Shown here piece after piece: positions 15,379 to 63,663 of a stretch of DNA of 64,000 bases. The stretch lies in assembly GCA_003667245.1 (NCBI GenBank), contig RCNN01000108.1:1-64000 (forward strand), read 5' to 3'. This DNA comes from Heterostelium multicystogenum. Lineage: Eukaryota > Evosea > Eumycetozoa > Acytosteliales > Acytosteliaceae. The first letter of the stretch is position 1; each line of letters starts with the position of its first letter. The position numbers and the translations under genes were made by a program. The notes below the pieces were generated by a model, which saw only the letters and a list, made by a program, of their open reading frames with translations, was not told the origin of the DNA and ran no database searches.

Positions 15379-15997
15379 TTAGCAGGTAACTGTGTAGGGC
15401 AGTAGCACTGGATTGTCTATGCATGTATCGTTGTAGATGGTTGGAAAACACGAGCCTTGGAAGCAAGTTATCAGCTTGACTATTCCATTGTCACACTCGT
15501 ACTTGGTTCCTGCGCCATCACTGTATCCATTGGTAAAGTACACTAGGTATGAGTCACCAGAGCAGGATGACAGCGAGTTGTAGTAGGTATTGTATTGGAT
15601 GGATTGGTAGGGCATGCGATTTTCGGTCGAGAACACAACCGATTGAAGAACAACAGCATCTTTGAATACAAAGTTGGGCACCAATGTATTGAGCGGGAAC
15701 ACTTTTTTTGTTGGCCCTGGTGTTTGCAGCGATTGGAAAAGTAGGTAACGGTGACATTGTGCTCATGAGATCAGTCCAAAGCAGTTGGATATCATTTACC
15801 TCATCGAAATAAACACATTCGTCCATGATAAAACTATATCCGAATCCCAACACTCCGTTGTTCAGACCATTTTGATATGGTGTGATATTTATTTGAGAGT
15901 TGGACACCACTGGGCTACCAGCCAAGCATTGACATACCACAGCCAATGATAATAGTAGATAACAAGAATAATAATAATAATAATTCATAATGAACAA
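15379..15997 (-). CDS. Secreted Cys-rich protein, unknown function
   Basis: A signal peptide (YLLLSLAVVCQCLAGSP) follows a short Tyr-rich start. The mature part runs through NDIQLLWTDLMSTMSPLP, then the frame shifts by one base near 15700-15730, beside a run of seven A, and continues as VFPLNTLVPNF to the Cys-bearing end CFQGSCFPTIYNDTCIDN, about 200 residues joined. The second half has evenly spaced Cys typical of disulphide-bonded extracellular proteins. I do not recognise the family. Start could be the first or second Met. Likely one gene with a homopolymer error. Confidence 0.55.
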
Positions 15998-16843
15998 TTT
16001 AAGAAAGCATAAATGAGTGAGTTCGTTTTGACAAAGGTATCAACTGGAGACAAGCTTTAAATAGGATACGATCAAATAATCGATTGGTTAACTAATAGCA
16101 TGTTTTAGGACTAAAGTTATAACCAAATAAATTATACTTGTGATGTCCCTCCTGAGGAACTCAGTTCCCGCTTCTGAACGAACCTTCTGAAAAATATCAT
16201 CTTTAGATATTCTCTATTGTTAGAGATCTTAATTTTTGGTCTAGATTCTATTTTTTAAACTCATGTTGAATACATTTCAATCTTTGGAACTAACAAACAA
16301 AAGTTTATATCTTTAAATATTGATATCATCATTGTCAAATATTATTATTACTTTTAATTCACCAGCTATGGGATCTATATATTTATATAAATAAATATAT
16401 GAACTGGTTGATGATAGTATACACCTATAAATTGTATTGAAACTTGTAAGGTGTTGTGACAGACAATAAAGGTTCAGTCCATTCAGATCACATCATAGAA
16501 ATTGATTCTTATTTAAGAAACTGAAGTATGATCAATTATTTCTATAATTTCAGTTTACTTTCTTTTTTTTCACATTTTATTTCGATATTAAATCATGACA
16601 TCATGTGTTGATTTTCTAAAACAAGAAAATTTCTTGATTTTTTTTAAATACAAGCTCGACAAAATATCTTGATCAATCATCTTTATTTGAGTCTAAAAGT
16701 TCAATATAAATACTTTACCAAATCAATCCATTTATAAATTCAAATCAAATATCAAATCAAATATAAAATAAACAACGTACTAATAATTAAAGTTATATAT
16801 TATTATTATTTATTTATATAATCACAATAACAACAAAAAAGAA
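15998..16843. other. Spacer with start of duplicated segment
   Basis: AT-rich sequence between divergent genes. From about 16552 to 16690 it matches 19634-19775 closely, including a tract with ATCATGACATCATGTG and CAAGCTCGACAAAATATC. This is the upstream edge of the duplication described elsewhere and serves as promoter and 5' leader of the Hcp-domain gene. Confidence 0.6.
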
Positions 16844-17918
16844 ATGAAGGATTCACTCGCTTTGTGGATTCCATTGGATATCAATGTCAATTCTGAGGAT
16901 TACCAAATTCCAACTATCGAAAATCAAAAAGATGCTTTGATGGGTTTAGTTGCTCCACCAGAGAATCAAGATGAAATGGATGAGGCCAACAATGAGTCTG
17001 AAGAGGAAACTACTATGGAAGAAGAGGAAAACAAGAAACCCCAGATCCTCTTGAAAAGATCATCTCAAAGAGATTCAAAGAGTTTGTTGCTCAATGGGTT
17101 GATATCATGAGTTTCTCTCATAATGTTGCATCAGAGGCTGGAAAGAGAAACAAACCACACATTGGTGATTTGACTTGCACCAAGTTCACATGTGATCGTT
17201 CACCAGCATTCAACTACATGGCGATGCGTGGTGAACTCATTCCACATATCATCTTCAGAACCATTGGAAAGATGGTAAATCGTGTTTTATCCATCATTGA
17301 ATATGAAATGCATCATGTCCAATTGACCAGTGTTTCTATCAGTGGTGGATCAGGTGGAAAACCAGTAGAAACAATGTCATTTAGCCAAAAATAATCATTA
17401 TCAAGAACATTAAATTGAATTTGGAGACTGGAGAATTCGAAACTTATCAAGTTTCCAAGTGGGACCAATTGAAAGGAACTGGATCAAAAACACTCTATTC
17501 TAACAAAGCTGGTATCAAAGGATCAAGCAAATCACTTTTGGAACTTGCCAAGAAACATTTGATGGTAGATTTGGATTCACACGACCCATCAACAGTTGCT
17601 CTCCTCAAAGAAATGGGAATTATCTCAGACTATGAATTACCACAAGTAGATTCTGTATCAGATGAAGATTTGGCAAATCTCAACAGAATCTTCATCAACA
17701 AGGATCCAGAGCTTTATCGAATCTTCGATGCACCAAAAGTCAAGACCATCGATGCCTACAAGAAGGCGATTGCAGAGAAGCTTTCAATCCCAGTCGATAC
17801 CATCAAAAATCTCTATAATAGTTCATCTGGATTTTTGATTGAATCTGACAAACTATTATCAATTACACAATCATTTATTGTAGAGAAGAACGATGGTAAA
17901 TTCATTGGATTTAATTAA
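16844..17918 (+). CDS. Hcp-domain (type VI secretion tube-like) protein
   Basis: Three frames join into one protein of about 358 residues. Part 1 (16844 to about 17035) is an acidic N-terminal region starting MKDSLALWIPLDIN. Part 2 (to about 17390) carries an Hcp-like domain: VDIMSFSHNVASEAG, GDLTCTKFTCDRSPAF, VQLTSVSISGGSGGKPVE and TMSFSQK, in the order and spacing seen in bacterial Hcp (SF-H, G-L-x-TK-D-SP, SVSxSGGxxxPxExxSF). Part 3 is a C-terminal extension of about 165 residues I cannot assign. Breaks: one extra base near the CCCC at 17038-17042, and one missing A near 17390; repairing each gives continuous reading. Hcp forms hexameric rings in bacterial injection tubes. The role in an amoeba is unknown; acquisition from bacteria is inferred. 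A deleted copy lies at 19634-19910. Confidence 0.7.
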
Positions 17919-18029
17919 AATATTCGTGTAAATCTTTATTTAAATAAACTACTATATATATATTTTTGTTTCTGTCTTGGAAAACAAGTATTTTTTGGTT
18001 AGAATTTGTCGTAGTAAATTTTGAAATCT

Positions 18030-18882
18030 TCAGATTAAAGAGGCTAACATTGATAGAGTAAAGCCTACTAAACTAGCTACTAGAGTGGTTCCAGAGTTGA
18101 TTTCCACTGTACCAGTTGTGAGAATGGTTCCAGAGTTGATTCCTCCAGTTGAGAGAGTGGATCCAGAGGTAGGACACGTTTCGGATACTTGTGTTTAGCT
18201 GCAATATCCTGCGTTGCAAGTCAATTGAACTGGGTTCATTGAAAGAACAGATCCAATCTTGGTGTTATAGAAATTACAAGCACCTGAATCATTACATTCG
18301 ATAGAAGATGCACCAGAAATTGTTGAGGCTACAGCATTGGCAGAACTCTCACAGTTTCTGCAACCGCAAGATACCGAAGAGCATTGGGCTGAAAGACCAT
18401 TCATTGTACAGCACGAGAACTTGCAATTGATACTTGGTGCATATAGACCATAGTTGGTCTGATTTTTCATAGGCAGTATAAATTCCGAGAGCGCATTCAT
18501 TGTCATTGCACACAAAAGAAACTCCTCTATAGTCACCTAGAATTGAATCTTTTAGATTTGTATAAATAAAAACAAGTTTGTTTCTTTGATTGACTGTTAT
18601 TATTACTATTATTCATTGTTTAACTTACTAGTTGTTTGACATGAGAAGTATTTTCTGGATTTGAAGTTGAATGTGTTCTCACACACACATGAATTATCAG
18701 CTAAACATACTAAACATGTTTGAAATACAAATAAGTCAATAAAATAAAGACTTATTGAGTAGACAAAATTGATACTTACCACTGCAATCGTAACCAGTCC
18801 ATCCATCTGAACAACCAGCAGAAGCATACAGAATTAAGAGAGCTTGAATGAATAAAAGTGATAAGTCTATATTCTTGTTCAT
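18030..18882 (-). pseudogene. Cys-rich GPI-type surface protein, copy 1 (probably decayed)
   Basis: Exons are 18882-18780 (signal peptide MNKNIDLSLLFIQALLILYA, then EGF-like GWTGYDCSG), 18709-18629 and from 18548, all matching copy 2 at 20060-20821. In exon 3 the frame breaks after GIYTAYEK, and an in-frame TAA stands after AGYCS (18195-18197). Beyond that stop the same frame still encodes TCPTSGSTLSTGG, a short internal repeat (INSGT) and a hydrophobic end, LVASLVGFTLSMLASLI, as in the GPI signal of copy 2. One frameshift plus one stop makes decay likely, though the protein could simply end at YCS. Divergent or convergent neighbours are the Hcp gene and its relic. Confidence 0.65.
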
Positions 18883-18932
18883 ATTTATATTATTTTTGTT
18901 CACAATGTTACTTTCTCTACTTCTTCTTCTGC

Positions 18933-19489: not shown

Positions 19490-19633
19490 TTTGAAAGATA
19501 GTTATTGAATTGGATGAATTCATATAAATTCATTCGTCTGTTAATGTTAACATAAGCAACCAATCATATTTTAAGTTCAATATCAAATACAAATAAAATA
19601 TTACTACAAGGAGTCATTTTATTTTATTAAATC

Positions 19634-19910
19634 ATGTTTACTTTCTTTTTTGTCACATTTTATTTCGATATTCAGATTTAAATCATGACATCATGTGTTG
19701 ATTTTCTAAAACAAGAAAATTTCTTGTTTTTTTTAAATACAAGCTCGACAAAATATCTTGATCAATCATCTTTATTTTAGTTTTAAAGATCAATAGTTCA
19801 TCTGGATTTTTGATTGAATCTGAGAAACTATTATCAATTACACAATCATTTATTGTAGAGAAGAACGATGGTAAATTCATTGGATTTAATTAAAATATTC
19901 GTGTAATTCT
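19634..19910 (+). pseudogene. Internally deleted second copy of Hcp gene
   Basis: The left part (19634-19775) matches the promoter/leader of the Hcp gene (16552-16690). After a short junction, the right part (19792-19908) matches its last 33 or so codons (17817-17933), starting at SSSGFLIES and running to the stop and beyond. About 1.1 kb, including the whole Hcp domain, is missing. This is a deletion derivative of a tandem duplicate and cannot make a functional protein. Confidence 0.85.
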
Positions 19911-20059
19911 TTATTTAAAAAAACTACTGAATATTCTTATCAACTAAAAAATGAATAATTACAACCTCCAGTGAAAGTATTATTATATATTATGTACTGA
20001 TATACTGAAATGATTTATTTGTTTCTAACTGGTATTTTTGGTTAGAATATTTTGAAACT

Positions 20060-20821
20060 TCAGATTAAAGAGGCGAACATTGATACGGCAGCTCCAACTA
20101 CACCAGTTGAGAGGGTGGATCCCGAGCTAACTGGACAAGAGTTGAATATAGCGTCGCTGTCGCTGCAATAACCTGCCTTGCAAGTCAATGGGACTGGGTT
20201 CATTGAAAGAACAGATCCAATCTTGGTGTTATAGAAATTACAAGCACCTGAATCATTACATTCGATAGAAGATGCACCAGAAATTGTTGAGGCTACAGCA
20301 TTGGCAGAACTCTCACAGTTTCTGCAACCGCAAGATACCGAAGAGCATTGGGCTGAAAGACCATTCATAGAGCAACCTGAGAATTTGCAATTGATGTTTG
20401 GTGCATATTCACCATAGTAATAGCCTTCGGAGTAACTATAAATTCCGAGAGTGCATTCACTTCCACTGCACATAAAAGAAACTCCTCTATAGTCATCAAG
20501 AACTCTATCTTTAATTTAGATTTATATTAATAAAATTTTTTGTTGACTTTAATACTCTTTGCCCACTTACTAGTTGTTTGACATGAGAAGTATTTTCCGG
20601 ATCTAAATTGCAATGAGTTTTCACATCCGCATGTATTTCCAGCTAGACATACTACAATATACAAAATAAAGTCAATAAAAAAGGAGGACTCTTTGAATTA
20701 CCAAATTGATATACTTACCATTGCAGTCGTAACCGGTCCATCCATTTAAGCAATTAGCAGAAACAGATAGAATTAAGATAGCTTGAATGACCAAGAGAGA
20801 TTTGATAATATTTTTGTACAT
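20060..20821 (-). CDS. Cys-rich GPI-anchored surface protein, copy 2
   Basis: Three exons, 20821-20719, 20651-20571 and 20508-20060, join in frame (CN-VCLAG; TT-NRVLDD). The protein of about 210 residues has a signal peptide (YKNIIKSLLVIQAILIL), an EGF-like GWTGYDCNG and CGCEN segment, then a Cys-rich domain (ECTLGIYSYSE, INCKFSGCSMNGLSAQCS, CGCRNCESSANAVAST). It ends in a Ser-rich linker and a hydrophobic C-terminus (GVVGAAVSMFASLI) fitting a GPI signal. No breaks, so this copy looks intact, unlike copy 1. The exon 3 core is nearly identical at DNA level between copies, suggesting recent duplication or gene conversion. Probably cell-surface; function unknown. Confidence 0.75.
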
Positions 20822-20916
20822 ATTTGTATATTTATTTATTCTTTTTTACAATATCGATGCGCAACCGGTTGTCTTTAAATAAAATAAGAAAGTCTTCGAA
20901 GGTTTATAAAAATCGT

Positions 20917-21182: not shown

Positions 21183-21641
21183 TTAGAGAACGTGGACATT
21201 CTTGATGTAAAGGTTGGCAAAGTTGTAACCTCTGTTGATGTATCCAAAGGTGAAGGTTTGACCGACTTGGATTGTTGGGGTAGCTGATGGGAGTGTGAAG
21301 TCACCAGATGGGAGACATTGGATGTTCCAGATGGATCCAGAGGTGTTGTCTCTCAAGTTCAAGGTACCGTCAGCAGCTCCGATAATGACATTATTAACAG
21401 CTCTTGGACCATGGTTGGTAACAGAGACTTCGACTTGAACAAAGTGTTGGGAATCGACATTCCATTGGTTGGTGACTCTCTGAGTAAGGGTAACCATCTC
21501 ACCGCAACCATAGATGCAACCATGTTGATGACCATCAAAGACACAACTGTAGTGTGGATTACACATGTTAGGTCCACATTGGAAGTGGGCACTGGACAAA
21601 GCAACAGCCATCAAAACAAAAAGGGCAACAAAGACTTTCAT
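21183..21641 (-). CDS. Secreted CBM49 cellulose-binding protein
   Basis: This 152-residue protein has a signal peptide (MKVFVALFVLMAVALSSAHF), a short Cys-rich dictyostelid motif (CGPNMCNPHYSCVFDGHQHGC), and a C-terminal CBM49 domain: VTLTQRVTNQWNVDSQHFVQ, VEVSVTNHGPRAVNNVII, SIWNIQC and TFTFGYINRG. CBM49 binds crystalline cellulose; dictyostelids use such proteins in the stalk and spore sheath matrix. The whole gene is one open frame with no breaks. Confidence 0.88.
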   Translation of the reverse strand: MKVFVALFVLMAVALSSAHFQCGPNMCNPHYSCVFDGHQHGCIYGCGEMVTLTQRVTNQWNVDSQHFVQVEVSVTNHGPRAVNNVIIGAADGTLNLRDNTSGSIWNIQCLPSGDFTLPSATPTIQVGQTFTFGYINRGYNFANLYIKNVHVL

Positions 21642-22378
21642 TGTAATTTCTAAAATTAACTTTTAGTTTAGTTTAAAATTTCTTTAAATAGTATTTAATT
21701 GAATTGATTTGATATGATTTCAAACCTTTACTATTTATAGTTTGATACTCTTTGAAAAATAATACCAAGAATTAAAAAGTATTACTAATACAAACATAAT
21801 TGTATATCTAAAAGGTCGTATCCATCCAATTGAAATCTGTAGATTTATTTCATTCTACACTTTGTTTCTTTATAACAAATTAATAATAGTTGTTGTTTTT
21901 TTGTTTTGAAATATGGAAATAGATGATCTAAGATCTGACTTTGGAAATTCAATAGTTTTTGACTTTTGTTTGAATAATTCTCGGATCTTGTATATGGTTA
22001 TATTTATATGAAATTTCAACTACTTAAACATTTATTTAATTCTATTTTTAATAAAGATAGATACTTTTATCAATCCAAAACAACCATATTATATCATATC
22101 ATATATTTGACAATTGGATTAAGATATAATGTTTTTAATACTAATTATTACTAAATTAATTGTAGTGGAAAGATTCAAATTTTTCTAATTTTAAAAATAC
22201 ATGTGTTGATTCAAATTGAAAAAAAAACAAATAAGTTACATAGAAATACTAGTATATTAATAATTTATTTCATCATTTTCATTTTATATGGAATGCATGA
22301 TAAATTATATTGAAGAACAGTCAATGGTTTTATATGTTGTCATTATGTTGCTAATCATTGTTGTTGCTGCTGTTATTG
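21642..22378. other. AT-rich spacer
   Basis: This is the promoter region of the CBM49 gene and the 3' flank of Atg6. No gene or RNA was recognised. Confidence 0.55.
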
Positions 22379-26271: not shown

Positions 26272-27852
26272 TTATGATGAACTTGTCACTTTTGAATATC
26301 TCTTGGTGGTTGATGAAGAATAGAAATCTTGTGAACGAACTTTGGCAGGTGGACGACCTTCAATTGGAACGTAGTTTCTAAACCATTCACCCTTGTACAC
26401 TTGACGTGGACGATAGATCTTAGTTTCTGGATCTTCGCAGTGTTCGATCCAGTGAGCCAACCAACCAACAGCACGTGGGATGGTGAAGAGGACTGGGAAC
26501 ATATCGGTTGGGAATCCCATTGCCTTGTAGATGAGACCAGAGTAGAAATCAACATTGGGATAAAGCTTTCTTTGGATAAAGTATTCGTCGCTCAAAGCTT
26601 GCTTCTCGAGCTCGGTGGCAACTTCGATGAGTGGCTCCTTTCCGAGTGAGTCAAAAACTTCGTAGGCTACACGACGAATGATCTTAGCACGTGGGTCGTA
26701 ATTCTTGTAGATACGATGTCCGAATCCCATCAACTTCTTTTTCTTTGCTTTGACGTCGGCGATGAACTGTGGAACGTTGTCCTTGGATCCAATTTGCTGT
26801 AGCATATCTAAAACTGCCTCGTTGGCACCACCATGAGATGGACCGTAGAGGGCACCAGCAGCACGGCAACCGAGGTATATGGGTCGGTACCAGATGAGGC
26901 AATATGTCTCATTGCGGCGGTGGAGCAGTTCAACTCGTGATCGGCATGAAGAATGAACAAGATCTCGAGAGCACGGCACAAGACTGGATTTGGCTTGTAG
27001 TCCTGCTCGGAGAGCTTATCCAACATATATAAGAAATTTTCAGTGTATCCCAAGTGGTTGACAGGGGTGTTGTATGGACGACCAATACGATGACGCCATG
27101 CGCAAGCAGCGATGGTTGGAAGCTTACCAACGATACGCAAGATCTGTTTGTTACGAACTGACTCTGACTTGAAAATGTCTTGTCCGACGAGGGCTGGATT
27201 GGCCTCTGGGTAGAAAGTTCCAAGTGCAGCAACAGTACTGATCAACATACCCATTGGATGTGCATCGTAACGGAAGGTCTTCATCATACCGACCAAGTTC
27301 TCGTGAAGGAATGTGTGTGTCATGATACGATGTGACCATGAGTCCAACTGTGCTTTATTGGGGAGATTACCATTGATCAATAGGTAAGCAACCTCAAGGA
27401 AGCTGGAACGTTCTGCCAACTCTTCAATTGGATATCCTCTGTATTCTTAAAATTCCCTTATCACCATCGATGTAGGTGATAGTTGAAGTAACAACGGCTG
27501 TGTTTTGGAATCCTGGATCGTAAACCATCAATCCATTATCTCCAGCTGTCTCTGAAACCTCTCTGAATGCCAAAGCATTGACAGTTAAATCTTTAATTGG
27601 CACATTATATGTTTTACCTGTACGATTATCTGTGATTGTAATTGAATCCTTCCTAGAATTGGTTAAACAATACATTGACAAATTCGATCAATATTCATTT
27701 TCTTTTGATAATTCATTCATAAATCCACTTAATTTCTCTACTTACTTTACTTTTCCGGAGACATTGTTTAACTCCAATTCGTCTTGATCCTCTACATCAT
27801 CTTCGACCATCAGATGATTGACCAAATTATTGATTCTGCCCAAATGTGACAT
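26272..27852 (-). CDS. cshA: Citrate synthase, peroxisomal type
   Basis: It condenses acetyl-CoA and oxaloacetate to citrate. Exon 1 (27852-27746) encodes [24 protein letters not shown] fits the PTS2 peroxisomal signal (R-I-x5-H-L). Exon 2 starts at 27652 ([11 protein letters not shown]). Catalytic signatures are [21 protein letters not shown] (His), [13 protein letters not shown] (His), [14 protein letters not shown] and [14 protein letters not shown] (Asp). The C-terminus ends in Ser/Lys-rich [12 protein letters not shown]. Two breaks: one extra A near 27447, where [12 protein letters not shown] should continue, and one missing G near 26865, at SVAGAAGALYG. Both are simple repairs in an otherwise conserved enzyme, so I read them as sequence errors. 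A glyoxylate/beta-oxidation link is inferred. Confidence 0.9.
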
Positions 27853-43740: not shown

Positions 43741-46174
43741 TGTTTGTCGTTGGATTTGATTTTGGTACAAAACAATGCACAATTGCAGTTGCACAAAAAG
43801 GAGGTGTCGATGTTTATTGCCAATGAAGTATCGAATCGTCTTACTCCATCCTTGGTTTCCTATGGTGAGAAGGAAAGATATCTTGGTGAGCCAGCCCTTA
43901 CCAATGTAAGTATAATAATTTTTGATAATTCATTTTTCAAAAATAATAAAAATAATTAATTCCCATATATACTAATATTTATTCTTTTCTTTTCTTTTCT
44001 TTTCTTTTGAATCCTATTAAATAGCAATTAAGAAATATTAGAAATACTATTACAAATATTAAAAGATTCATTGGTGTCAACTTCAAAGATGTACAAACGA
44101 ATTAAAGTCAGAGTCATTCAACGCTTTCGAGTTACCAAAATGGTCCAAGTTGGATTCAATGTACAGTTGTGTGGAGAACCACGTCAAGTCAGTGCAGTCG
44201 CTGCATTGGGTAGTTTGTTGGGTAAATTAAAGAGAACCACAGAGGCCTTCGCCAAGGCTCCAGTCAGAGAGGTCGTAGTTTTCAGTGCCAGTCTTCTGGA
44301 ATGAGTACCAGAGACGTGCTCTCTTGGATGCTGGTACCATCGCCGTTTGAATATCACTCGTTTGATCAACGAAACCACCGCCACCGCACTTTCATACGGT
44401 ATTTACAAGGATTTGCCAGAGACAGATCCATTGAAGGTCCTCTTTATCGACGTTGGTGACAGCGCAACTACAGTCTCTGCTGTCGATTTCAAAAAGGGAC
44501 AACTCCAAGTCAAGGCAGTTGCCTACGAGAAGGATGTTGGTGGACGTAACTTTGACTTGACTCTACTCAAGTATTGGGCCAACGAATTCAAGCAGACCTA
44601 CAAGATTGATATCTATGAGAACAAGAAGGCTTTGATTCGTACTCAACAAGCCTGCGAAAAATTGAAGAAGATGTTGTCCTCCAACTTTGAGGCACCCATC
44701 TCTATCGACTCTTTGATGGACGACAAGGGACGTCAAAGGAAAAATGAATCGTGATCAATTCGAAGAGTTGATCAAAAACGATCTCGAAGCCATTTTGGTC
44801 CCAGTCAAGAAGGTTTTGGAAGCCACCGGCCTTACCCCAGACCAATTTAACTCAATTGAAATTACTGGTGGTGGAACTCGTTCCACCTCTGTCCAAAAGA
44901 AATTGGTAGAATTTTTGGGTCGTGATCTCTCCAAGACCATCAACTCTGAAGAGTCTGTATGCAGAGGTTGTGCCCTTCAATGCGCCATGATGTCACCAGT
45001 TTTCAAGGTACGTCAATTCGCTGTTAACGAAATCGCCTCCTACCCAATCCAAGTCCAATACAAGTCTGCCTCTGGTGAACAAAACCTCCAAGTCTTCAAC
45101 ACTCTCAGTGCAGTCCCAACCGCCAAGCCAATCCGTTTCTCATTCCCAATCACCAAGCCAGAGCCATTCCAATTGTTGGTCACCGCCCCATACGGAACTC
45201 TCCAGACCATCACAGTTAACAACGTACCAGCCTTCACCAACAAAACAACTGTCAAGGCTCGTGTATGGTTGGATGTCCATGGTATTTTCCACCTCGACGA
45301 AGTTAAATTGGTTGAAACACTCCCAGAAGAACCAGCCGAGCCAAAGGAAGACACCAAGATGGAGGATACCAATCAACAACATGAAGAAAAGAAGGAAGAA
45401 GTAAAGAAGGTCAAGGTAAAGGAAACCCCACTCGAATACAACACTGTCATCCCATACCAAGACAAGGCTGAACTCCAAAGAGAAGTTGAAGAGGAAGGTA
45501 GAATGCACGCTTCAGATTGTTTGGCAAGTGAAACTGCCGACAAAAAGAACGCCTTGGAGTCATACATTTATGACATGCGTTCAAAGCTTTCCGATGTTCT
45601 CAAACCATTCGCCACCGAGCAAGAGTCAACCAAATTGGCCTCTATGCTTACTGAGGCTGAAGACTGGCTCTACGGAGAAGGTGAAGATGCCACCAAATCT
45701 ATATACGTAGCCAAGCTCGATGAGCTCCAAAAGATTGGAAATCCAATTGAAAAGCGTCGTTTGGATCGTGAGCAATACCCAGAGGCCATCGAAAACCTCC
45801 GTCAAACCGCTTCCTTCTATAAGCATGCCGCCACCACAGAAAACGAAAAATACGACCACATTCCAAAGGAAGACAAAGAAAAGATCGCTGTAGAATCTGA
45901 CCAATTGGTTCAATGGGCTGAATCATTGGTCGCCAAAGAACAAAGCATTCCAAAGAACCAAAACTGTAGCATCAACATTGCCGAAGTTAACACCAAGCGT
46001 CACCAATTTGAGACCATGGCCAAGCAAATCCTGAGCAAACCAAAGCCAGCTCCACCAAAGCCACAGACACCACCAGCTCAACCAACCACTCCAAACCCAG
46101 AGCCAGCTCAACCAGAGAAGCCAGCTGAAACTCAACAACCACCAGCTCAAGATTCAAGTATGGAATGTGATTAA
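43741..46174 (+). CDS. Hsp110 (Hsp70-like nucleotide-exchange chaperone)
   Basis: Hsp110 is a cytosolic Hsp70 relative and exchange factor. Exon 1 (43741-43905) encodes FVVGFDFGTKQCTIAVAQKG; exon 2 starts at 44025 (QLRNIRNTITNIKRFIG). Further motifs are INETTATALSYGIYKDLPE, VLFIDVGDSATTVSAVD, ITGGGTRSTSVQKKL, TINSEESVCRGCALQC and, in the long C-terminal part, VYVAKLDELQKIG-like YVAKLDELQKIGNPIEKR. An acidic/Lys loop (EEKKEEVKKVKVKE) splits the substrate-binding region, as in the family. It ends in a Pro-rich tail with MECD. Breaks occur near 43816 (TTT for TT), 44093, 44300-44350 and 44729 (GGG for GG); each repair restores conserved text. Confidence 0.92.
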
Positions 46175-62110: not shown

Positions 62111-63663
62111 CTATCTTATTGGTTTTAATGATTTCAAATGAGATTGAGCATTGTGATACAGTTCTCTATAAAGATGTGCTGTTGAAAATAGGGATTCGAT
62201 GTCTCTTTCCTCCCAGTTTTGAGTTGGTGGTTTCTGTAGGAATATCATGATATCTGGAAAATCTTTTTTGTTTTAATTCGTCGGACCAAAGCACAAGGAA
62301 TGCTGCACATACATAGATGTGGAAAACACTGAATCCCTCACGCTCGCACAAGTAGGTGTCCCACATACGAATGACGAGAGAGAACGGGATTTCACGCATG
62401 AGCAAGCAATTCATCCAACGGAATGCAAACTCGATAAATTGGGCATCTTGTTTCGGCAAGATGATTGCACAGTGATGAGTTGATGGTTTCCAAAAGACCT
62501 TTGAGTTGGACAATCATCCTCTGAATGCCCGGTTGTGCAAATGTATAGTGATCTTGGATACCATCGAGTAGCTTTGTCAGGCACCAGTAGCTGTCGGCCT
62601 CTACCATAAAGAGAATGGCCGGATCGAGTGTCTCGACGTTGCAGCTCTCGATGTCATCGACAAACTCTGATAAAAACACATAAATGAATGGTGTTGCCAG
62701 GTCGTTGATTCCCTGTACGTATCCTGTCGAAGGGTGACGTATGCCCCATATATACAAAATGCGCTCCAATATCTCTTGGATCAGTGGTTGTTGGAAGAGT
62801 GGAACCGATGGATTAGTTCTTGGCACGTCCATCTGAATCTGCTTCAATGTCTTCTTGTCTGGATCAGTTCGTTTCTCTTCAGAGATATGATATTGTGGCA
62901 GACAATCGCGGTATTCTTTTCGCTTTCTCTCCAAAGTTTCTTCTCTTCGCTCGCCGTTGGTCGGCAAATATCCCAACAGTATTTTCCATGACATGGGTCG
63001 CTTTGACTTGCTGATTCCACGCCACGCCAACTTTTTCAGTGCTTCCAAATCTACGTTTCCGGCGCACAGCAGCTTTTCGAACTTTTTTCAACTTTGTGCT
63101 CTTTTCATCGTATACATTCGACCTGTTGCCGTTGTCGATGCCTCCACCACTTGAACCTAATGAATTGATCGAGGACGACGAGAGTGACAGATGGTTTTCT
63201 GACGACAGTGATGTGTTTGAAGGTGAGTTATTATTGTTGGGTGTGAGAGAAGACGATGAAAATGATTTTGGCGAATTTGTATCTGGTGGTGAATTTAAAC
63301 TATTATTACTATTATTACTATACTGTTGATCTCCAACTACTACTACACTAGTGCTATCTGAGTGCACTATTTTAGGTGAAACATATTGATTGTGATTAAA
63401 TATAGCTGATTGATCGTGTTCTCTTTTTGATTTTGGTATAAAACTTCCATTAAACTTTTCAAACTTATGAGGAATATGACTATTAATCGGTTTTGCTGTT
63501 CCTGGACTCTGCTTCAATGTGAACCATATGATATTGTTAGTGATAATTCCAAAGTCTCAGCATTATCTATCGTTGATTTTACCTTTCTCGATGAAAATCT
63601 CCAAAAACTTGTCTCTTTCATAGGACTATTTGTATCGCTTGTTAGATTTGGTGAATTACTCAT
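62111..63663 (-). CDS. tbc1d22: TBC-domain RabGAP, TBC1D22-like
   Basis: TBC proteins speed GTP hydrolysis by Rabs. Exon 1 (63663-63583, MSNSPNLTSDTNSPMKETSF) joins exon 2 (from 63507) as SRK-SPGTAKPI. The N-terminus is Ser/Asn-rich. TBC text: LEALKKLAWRGISKSKRPMS, WKILLGYLPTN, Arg finger IQMDVPRTNP, Gln finger YVQGINDLATPF, and FIEFAFRWMNCLLMREIPF with TYLCEREGFSVFH. The frame shifts near 63085 (A run), 62445 and 62265; read across the last, it ends in FLQKPPTQNW and SHLKSLKPIR at 62111, like the TBC1D22 C-terminus. Likely a Golgi/endomembrane RabGAP by family. Confidence 0.88.

Follow-up and report, generated by a model that had tools for sequence, protein, structure and literature searches.

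Introduction

Hcp is the ring-forming tube protein of the type VI secretion system (T6SS), an injection weapon of bacteria, and Dictyostelium discoideum is a long-standing host in work on this system. T6SS-linked bacterial genes have been adopted by eukaryotes in the case of the Tae/Dae amidases, effector genes taken over by animals. Those are antibacterial enzymes, whereas the case described here, from a 64,000-nucleotide stretch of Heterostelium multicystogenum DNA (assembly GCA_003667245.1, contig RCNN01000108.1, positions 1 to 64,000; hereafter, the window), concerns the tube protein itself. The gene in question, located at 16844-17918 on the forward strand, encodes an Hcp domain followed by a C-terminal ubiquitin-like domain. 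We have very little doubt that it represents a real and so far uncharacterised fusion, of bacterial origin, that occurs in at least seven dictyostelid taxa.

Among solved structures, the nearest to the amoeba protein is that of Pseudomonas aeruginosa Hcp3 (9qpe). According to the respective papers, the cargo Tce1 is repeatedly contacted, within the ring, by residues S29, S31, E56, T60, G121 and K123 of Hcp3, and the ring contacts are those of alpha1/beta6 with beta2/beta9 (PMC13323088); loop L2,3 is required for the stacking of rings in B. pseudomallei Hcp1 (PMC4650826), and loops differ among bacterial types (PMC5874247). An arrangement of Hcp followed by a C-terminal domain, as in the amoeba protein, is described for bacterial Hcp proteins that carry an extension toxin at the C-terminus (Hcp-ET; PMC6730261).

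Among the papers listed in literature searches, which extended to neither subscription papers nor preprints, we found no account of an amoebal Hcp protein. The text of a study reporting 16 candidates for bacterial transfer into D. discoideum mentions neither Hcp nor DUF796 (PMC3188802). Likewise, nothing on Hcp in amoebae appears in the consulted parts of a survey of bacterial T6SS (PMC2660368) or of a paper that mentions the passage of toxin and immunity domains into eukaryotes (PMC3482391).

Identification of the Hcp domain

An earlier note on the window had proposed an Hcp-like domain in this gene from the order of four peptides. The gene limits that it gave are correct, with an ATG at 16844 and the last stop at 17916-17918, and all four peptides (VDIMSFSHNV, GDLTCTKFTCDRSP, LTSVSISGGSGGKPVE and TMSFSQK) were found in the order described, on the forward strand within a single open frame (17002-17391). 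The middle piece of the gene matches the Pfam family PF05638 (T6SS_HCP) over profile positions 17-121 of 129, with an E-value of 2.7e-8 and 34.6 bits (cut-off 23.5). Its sequence match to P. aeruginosa Hcp3 (9qpe_A) has an E-value of 8.5e-15; on these two values the similarity to Hcp is far beyond chance. The same Pfam profile (E up to 1) matched 11 of the 12 rows scanned, presumably with the bacterial row P0009 among the 11 and an extension piece as the twelfth; the dictyostelid protein PPL_11717 scored 51.7 bits. The NCBIfam cut-off for TssD (TIGR03344, 58.9 bits) was not reached by any of five proteins scanned, a set outside which the window Hcp piece lies, and the best score among them was 27.3 bits.

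Fold comparison led to the same identity. The predicted model of a relative, PPL_00181 (P0005) of Heterostelium album, has the Hcp beta-barrel; its alignment with solved Hcp chains begins at residue 2, and the fold match reaches residue 215; the Hcp assignment is thus upheld both by profile and, through this relative, by structure prediction of the monomer. The amoeba proteins and Hcp3 are alike in the fold of the whole domain and in the motifs MSxSHN and SGGxGGKPVET. Because the alignment of the relative starts at residue 2, the acidic region is placed as an insert between Hcp strand 1 (MKDSLALWIPLDINVN) and strand 2: the acidic stretch itself had been recognised correctly, but it interrupts the Hcp fold and does not flank it on the N-terminal side. 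This insert distinguishes the amoeba proteins from bacterial Hcp, Hcp3 included, as do the reduced length of loop L2,3 (12 of 13 proteins), a C-terminal motif with the ubiquitin-like domain, and the eukaryotic host.

The C-terminal extension

Past the conserved WD, at approximately 17465, the protein continues for about 150 residues, the final part of which is the ubiquitin-like domain. The extension had been noticed before, although its length had been put at 165 residues and it had been considered to lack a recognised family; the count after WD is shorter, and part of the extension does have a recognisable, ubiquitin-like fold. Its best conserved stretch is a motif of 36 residues, with a mean pairwise identity of 0.75 and 14 of 36 columns invariant across the 13 dictyostelid proteins described below; fold searches gave no confident match for this motif. 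For the C-terminal domain, the fold searches identified a beta-grasp, leaving the particular ubiquitin-like family unsettled, and at profile level the domain resembles ubiquitin-like sequences of the same genome.

The beta-grasp fold is common to this domain and to ISG15, ubiquitin, NEDD8 and CIDE-N domains. The amoeba domain is, however, unlike ubiquitin itself in two respects: the Pfam ubiquitin family (PF00240) matched one of the 12 rows, at an E-value of 0.15 and below its cut-off, and none of the 13 proteins ends in the GG used for conjugation. The sequence ends in GKFYGY or GKFYGH in nine of the 13, and PPL_11717 is the only one with a GG (AGGK) seven residues ahead of its terminus. The extension also differs from Hcp-ET in being ubiquitin-like, in its amoebal host and in that no toxin family was matched above cut-off: no Pfam family exceeded its cut-off in the window extension, and the best non-Hcp match in the 12 rows had an E-value of 0.011. 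A sequence search of PDB with the window extension returned a best E-value of 1.4. The C-terminal domain of Grainyhead (GRHL1_C, PF25416) was considered as the identity of the extension and rejected; it matched six of the 12 rows with E-values of 1 or less, the best at 0.011 with 16 bits against a cut-off of 27. It is also conceivable, though in our opinion improbable, that the ubiquitin-like domain self-assembles in the manner of CIDE-N, PB1 or DIX domains, in which case ring and domain together would build a filament or condensate.

Distribution and bacterial origin

Protein searches recovered 13 dictyostelid proteins of common architecture from seven named taxa, namely H. album PN500 (four), P. 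violaceum (one), D. firmibasis (two), D. citrinum (one), D. dimigraforme (one), D. cf. discoideum (two) and D. discoideum (two, one of which is DDB_G0288943 of strain AX4). Orthologues with the same extensions are thus present in other dictyostelids. The first search listed nine rows (eight dictyostelid proteins and P0009, of bacterial Hcp type) and the second 13; no other eukaryote appeared in either list. The names D. purpureum, Cavenderia, Tieghemostelium and Acytostelium were absent from the same two lists, which provide no wider basis for absence. All 13 proteins carry database names such as hypothetical or uncharacterised, and PF05638 is precomputed for nine of them, DDB_G0288943 not being among these. 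One of the D. firmibasis proteins, RB653_008790 (P0010), is 439 residues long as modelled and closes with a further partial insert and ubiquitin-like stretch, which gives the impression that two tandem copies were joined or that the gene was mis-annotated.

A profile of the Hcp core, made from five dictyostelid proteins and P0009, matched 354 proteins at an E-value of 1e-4. The organisms named among the 120 of these matches that were listed are bacterial, mainly Pseudomonas, Azotobacter and beta-proteobacteria, with Citrobacter and Enterobacter also represented, and identities to the listed bacterial proteins are approximately 36-50%. Similarly, the 80 loci kept from 114 confirmed genome loci all belong by title to gamma- or beta-proteobacteria, in most cases to Pseudomonas. 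In a tree of 51 rows, for which 33 of the 120 bacterial proteins were sampled, the 16 dictyostelid Hcp rows form one clade with full support (100/100); a long branch (3.15) separates this clade from the bacterial rows, with five of which it shares a fork (88/89 support). Since the branch is so long, the place of the dictyostelid clade among the bacteria is unsure. The bacterial origin that had been proposed for the domain is supported by the bacterial relatives among the matches listed. On the simplest reading, the gene was transferred once, to an early dictyostelid, and duplicated afterwards, with the exact donor not fixed by the tree.

Residence in the amoeba genome

When contigs of the same genome were searched with PF05638, four matches were obtained: the window gene and one match on each of contigs C6, C267 and C339. 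A protein search with PPL_00181 added a third copy, on contig C84, and a remnant within the window. Over the stretches examined, C6 (199 kb) and C84 (107 kb) have 34% and 36% GC, respectively, and the GC content at third codon positions (GC3) in the three pieces of the window gene is 0.34-0.36, as against 0.63 and 0.74 in contaminant hcp genes. On C267 (L005) and C339 (L006), the hcp matches lie among bacterial genes (by eye) in stretches of approximately 60% GC, which means that the assembly does contain bacterial contaminants. As a separate observation, the contaminant contigs C267, C339, C4 (L098) and C257 (L100), all of approximately 60% GC and Pseudomonas-like by eye, carry hcp, tssB and vgrG, as well as tssC by eye.

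Besides Hcp, the T6SS families searched for were TssB and VgrG. The profile search of the genome contigs with TssB (PF05591) gave one match, on C339, and that with VgrG/GPD (PF05954) gave two matches over the cut-off on C4 and one below it on C257, all at approximately 60% GC. AT-rich contigs gave no match to either family, so that the amoeba Hcp differs from its bacterial counterparts in having no sheath (TssB) or spike (VgrG) genes detected in such surroundings.

The presence of contaminant contigs with hcp, tssB and vgrG could suggest that the window gene is itself bacterial DNA joined to dictyostelid DNA during assembly. Against this stand the 13 proteins of the same architecture in seven taxa, the low GC3 and the copies on the long AT-rich contigs C6 and C84, and we regard contamination as refuted in substance and exceedingly unlikely. 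The earlier note had named contamination, or the lack of a profile or fold match to Hcp, as what would speak against its proposal; neither was encountered, and the gene sits in AT-rich dictyostelid DNA.

Conserved lumen and altered stacking loop

The six Hcp3 residues that contact cargo are matched in the 13 dictyostelid proteins at frequencies of 1.00 (S29), 1.00 (S31), 0.85 (E56), 0.85 (T60), 1.00 (G121) and 1.00 (K123), with a mean of 0.95; in other words, four are kept in all 13 proteins, and E56 and T60 in 11. As background, the 81 aligned positions conserved to at least 90% in 23 bacterial rows, the six lumen residues included, are matched at 0.50. Random sets of six positions reached the lumen mean in 107 of 20000 draws, a count to be read with the fact that the six residues are confined to two motifs and hence are not independent. 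Within the H. multicystogenum genome, five of the six are kept in the window copy (E to D), three of the four within the aligned piece of the C6 copy (K to I) and two of six in the C84 copy.

Loop L2,3, in contrast, has changed in length. Of 120 bacterial rows, 117 have a loop of 19 residues and one a loop of 18, the other two being without a measurement, whereas in the 13 dictyostelid proteins it measures 8 (six proteins), 10, 11, 11, 13, 15, 17 and 24 residues. We read the amoeba Hcp, from these sequence features, as a putative ring in which the interior has been kept and the faces altered.

A role in host defence might also be considered, in which the amoeba Hcp would join injected bacterial Hcp or effectors, either in a mixed ring or by capturing cargo, and the ubiquitin-like domain would direct them to degradation, the protein serving as a sensor or decoy for the weapon. 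The far better conservation of the six lumen residues compared with other conserved Hcp positions is in line with this, and clearance would fit a ubiquitin-like domain; furthermore, Pseudomonas and beta-proteobacteria, whose Hcp proteins are the closest bacterial relatives among those listed, can be encountered by soil amoebae, and mixed Hcp hexamers are mentioned in PMC13323088. However, a mixed ring is doubtful at an identity of only about 36-50% to the bacterial proteins listed, and the amoeba clade, a single long branch, gives no indication of being matched to a particular bacterial type. We therefore consider host defence unlikely. A more specific form, an immune adaptor whose Hcp ring and ubiquitin-like domains would capture injected Hcp or effector cargo in the lumen and hand it to the ubiquitin or autophagy machinery, appears quite unlikely.

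Frame breaks and divergence of the copies

The window gene is spread over three frames, the first piece running from 16844 to about 17017, the second from about 17005 to 17391 and the third from 17391 to 17915, with a first break near 17000-17017 and a second near 17385-17394, as placed by comparison with intact relatives. Its first coding piece is 60% identical to residues 1-58 of PPL_00181 and its second 71% identical to residues 55-190. Breaks without room for an intron, across which one profile continues from frame to frame, were likewise found in the same window in genes for citrate synthase, an HSP70-type chaperone and a RabGAP-TBC protein and, less cleanly, a DEAH helicase; the break sites of this set are 26862-26865, 44726-44727, 62443-62453 and about 53288. 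The contaminant vgrG also has a frame break. A 14-3-3 gene is whole over profile positions 10-223; it should be noted that this comparison is not a rate, as four of the five genes were chosen for their overlapping open reading frame pieces and the 14-3-3 gene looked whole. Since breaks sit in conserved genes of the window, the assembly seems prone to small insertions and deletions, and we hold sequencing error to be more likely than decay as the cause of the breaks in the Hcp gene.

The opposite reading, that both breaks are real and the window copy is a decayed pseudogene, is rather improbable in our estimation. One gene does carry two breaks, a clear remnant adjoins it (19619-19934), and the C84 copy lacks four of the six lumen residues as well as, by eye, the motif of 36 residues. 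Against this, similar breaks occur in the other genes just listed, and the window protein has retained 78% identity to PPL_00181 over 109 columns. Crude estimates of substitution between the copies gave, for the extension, dN 0.25 and dS 1.72 (window vs C84) and dN 0.46 and dS 2.51 (window vs C6); for the Hcp half, the values were 0.45 and 0.83 (window vs C84) and 0.52 and 1.26 (window vs C6), the comparison of C84 with C6 being saturated. With dN well below dS in the extension, neutral decay of this part is argued against. The C84 copy (L096 4174-5250) is itself diverged: besides the lumen residues and the 36-residue motif, it has lost the SGGxGGKPVET motif, and it has kept the ubiquitin-like domain.

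Genomic neighbourhood

The features of the gene and its surroundings are listed in Table 1. The block containing the gene had been described as duplicated, and this proved to be real: 16536-16706 recurs at 19619-19795 (90%) and 17817-17959 at 19792-19934 (96.5%), together forming a truncated Hcp copy, and the adjoining cysteine-rich gene recurs over the stretches listed (79% identical DNA). The last 102 coding bases of the truncated copy are 99% identical to the gene, compared with 79% for the neighbouring duplicated gene, which suggests later conversion or a second event.

Table 1 Features of the Hcp gene and its neighbourhood in the window
Feature	Coordinates	Strand	Basis or remark
First coding piece: strand 1 of Hcp (MKDSLALWIPLDINVN), conserved stretch YQIPTIENQKD and beginning of acidic insert	16844..17017	+	Open frame 16787-17107
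Second coding piece: remaining insert and Hcp core, strand 2 to GGKPVET loop	17005..17391	+	Frame stop 17392-17394
Last Hcp strand, to conserved WD; third coding piece begins (open frame 17385-17915)	17391..17465	+	Alignment to bacterial Hcp C-terminus; fold match of PPL_00181
36-residue motif LLELAKK..LMVDLDSHDPSTVALLKE.GI..YELP	17535..17642	+	Conservation in 13 dictyostelid proteins
C-terminal ubiquitin-like (beta-grasp) domain, end DGKFIGFN, without GG	17667..17915	+	Stop 17916-17918
Truncated tandem copy of Hcp gene	19619..19934	+	Upstream piece joined to last 33 codons, stop and 3' flank; about 1.1 kb between missing
Cysteine-rich protein gene, hydrophobic leader (by eye), in duplicated block beside Hcp gene	18145..18895	-	No Pfam match at E 0.01 (piece 18198-18536)
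Second cysteine-rich gene copy	20103..20833	-	No Pfam match at E 0.01 (piece 20063-20515)
Neighbour, weak match to counting factor-associated protein A/B/C	15557-16039	-	21.1 bits, below cut-off 28.6
Neighbour, CBM49 carbohydrate-binding protein	21186-21662	-	62.9 bits, cut-off 23.4

The two cysteine-rich proteins, which are related and have a hydrophobic leader (by eye), are probably secreted, and a hydrophobic C-terminus resembling a GPI signal was seen by eye at approximately 18030. A functional link of the Hcp gene to its secreted neighbours was rejected, as the C6 and C84 copies have other neighbours (by eye). In the Hcp protein, no hydrophobic leader was found in the first window piece or in the four relatives measured, and for this reason the fusion protein is probably cytosolic. 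These data bear on whether the protein could be a secreted or phagosomal weapon for feeding on bacteria. Amoebae do feed on bacteria and the adjoining genes look secreted (by eye), but the missing leader and the different neighbours of the other copies make such a weapon very unlikely.

Proposed mechanism and significance

The mechanism that we favour, tentatively and at slightly less than an even chance, is that of a non-stacking ring presenting ubiquitin-like domains. A bacterial hcp gene similar to that of Pseudomonas Hcp3 would have entered a dictyostelid ancestor and become fused to a ubiquitin-like domain of eukaryotic type, gaining the acidic insert after the first strand, and the gene would then have been kept and duplicated. 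The product, having the Hcp fold, has most likely retained the ability to form a closed ring whose lumen binds cargo, and would not stack into a tube. Such a ring would probably act as a scaffold or chaperone, holding a partner in or on it, and would probably show several ubiquitin-like domains to the ubiquitin-reading machinery of the cell.

Several dictyostelid species appear to have retained a component of the injection apparatus of bacteria that is structural, and not only a toxin from it, joined to a ubiquitin-like domain, which suggests that part of a bacterial weapon has been turned into an ordinary amoeba protein. As D. discoideum has its own copy, DDB_G0288943, deletion of the gene offers an immediate test of the protein's role. 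Were the protein to capture Hcp or its cargo, it would represent a novel form of defence by which cells counter contractile weapons; otherwise, it would still show, as a case from nature, how a ring scaffold can be put to new use by a eukaryote.
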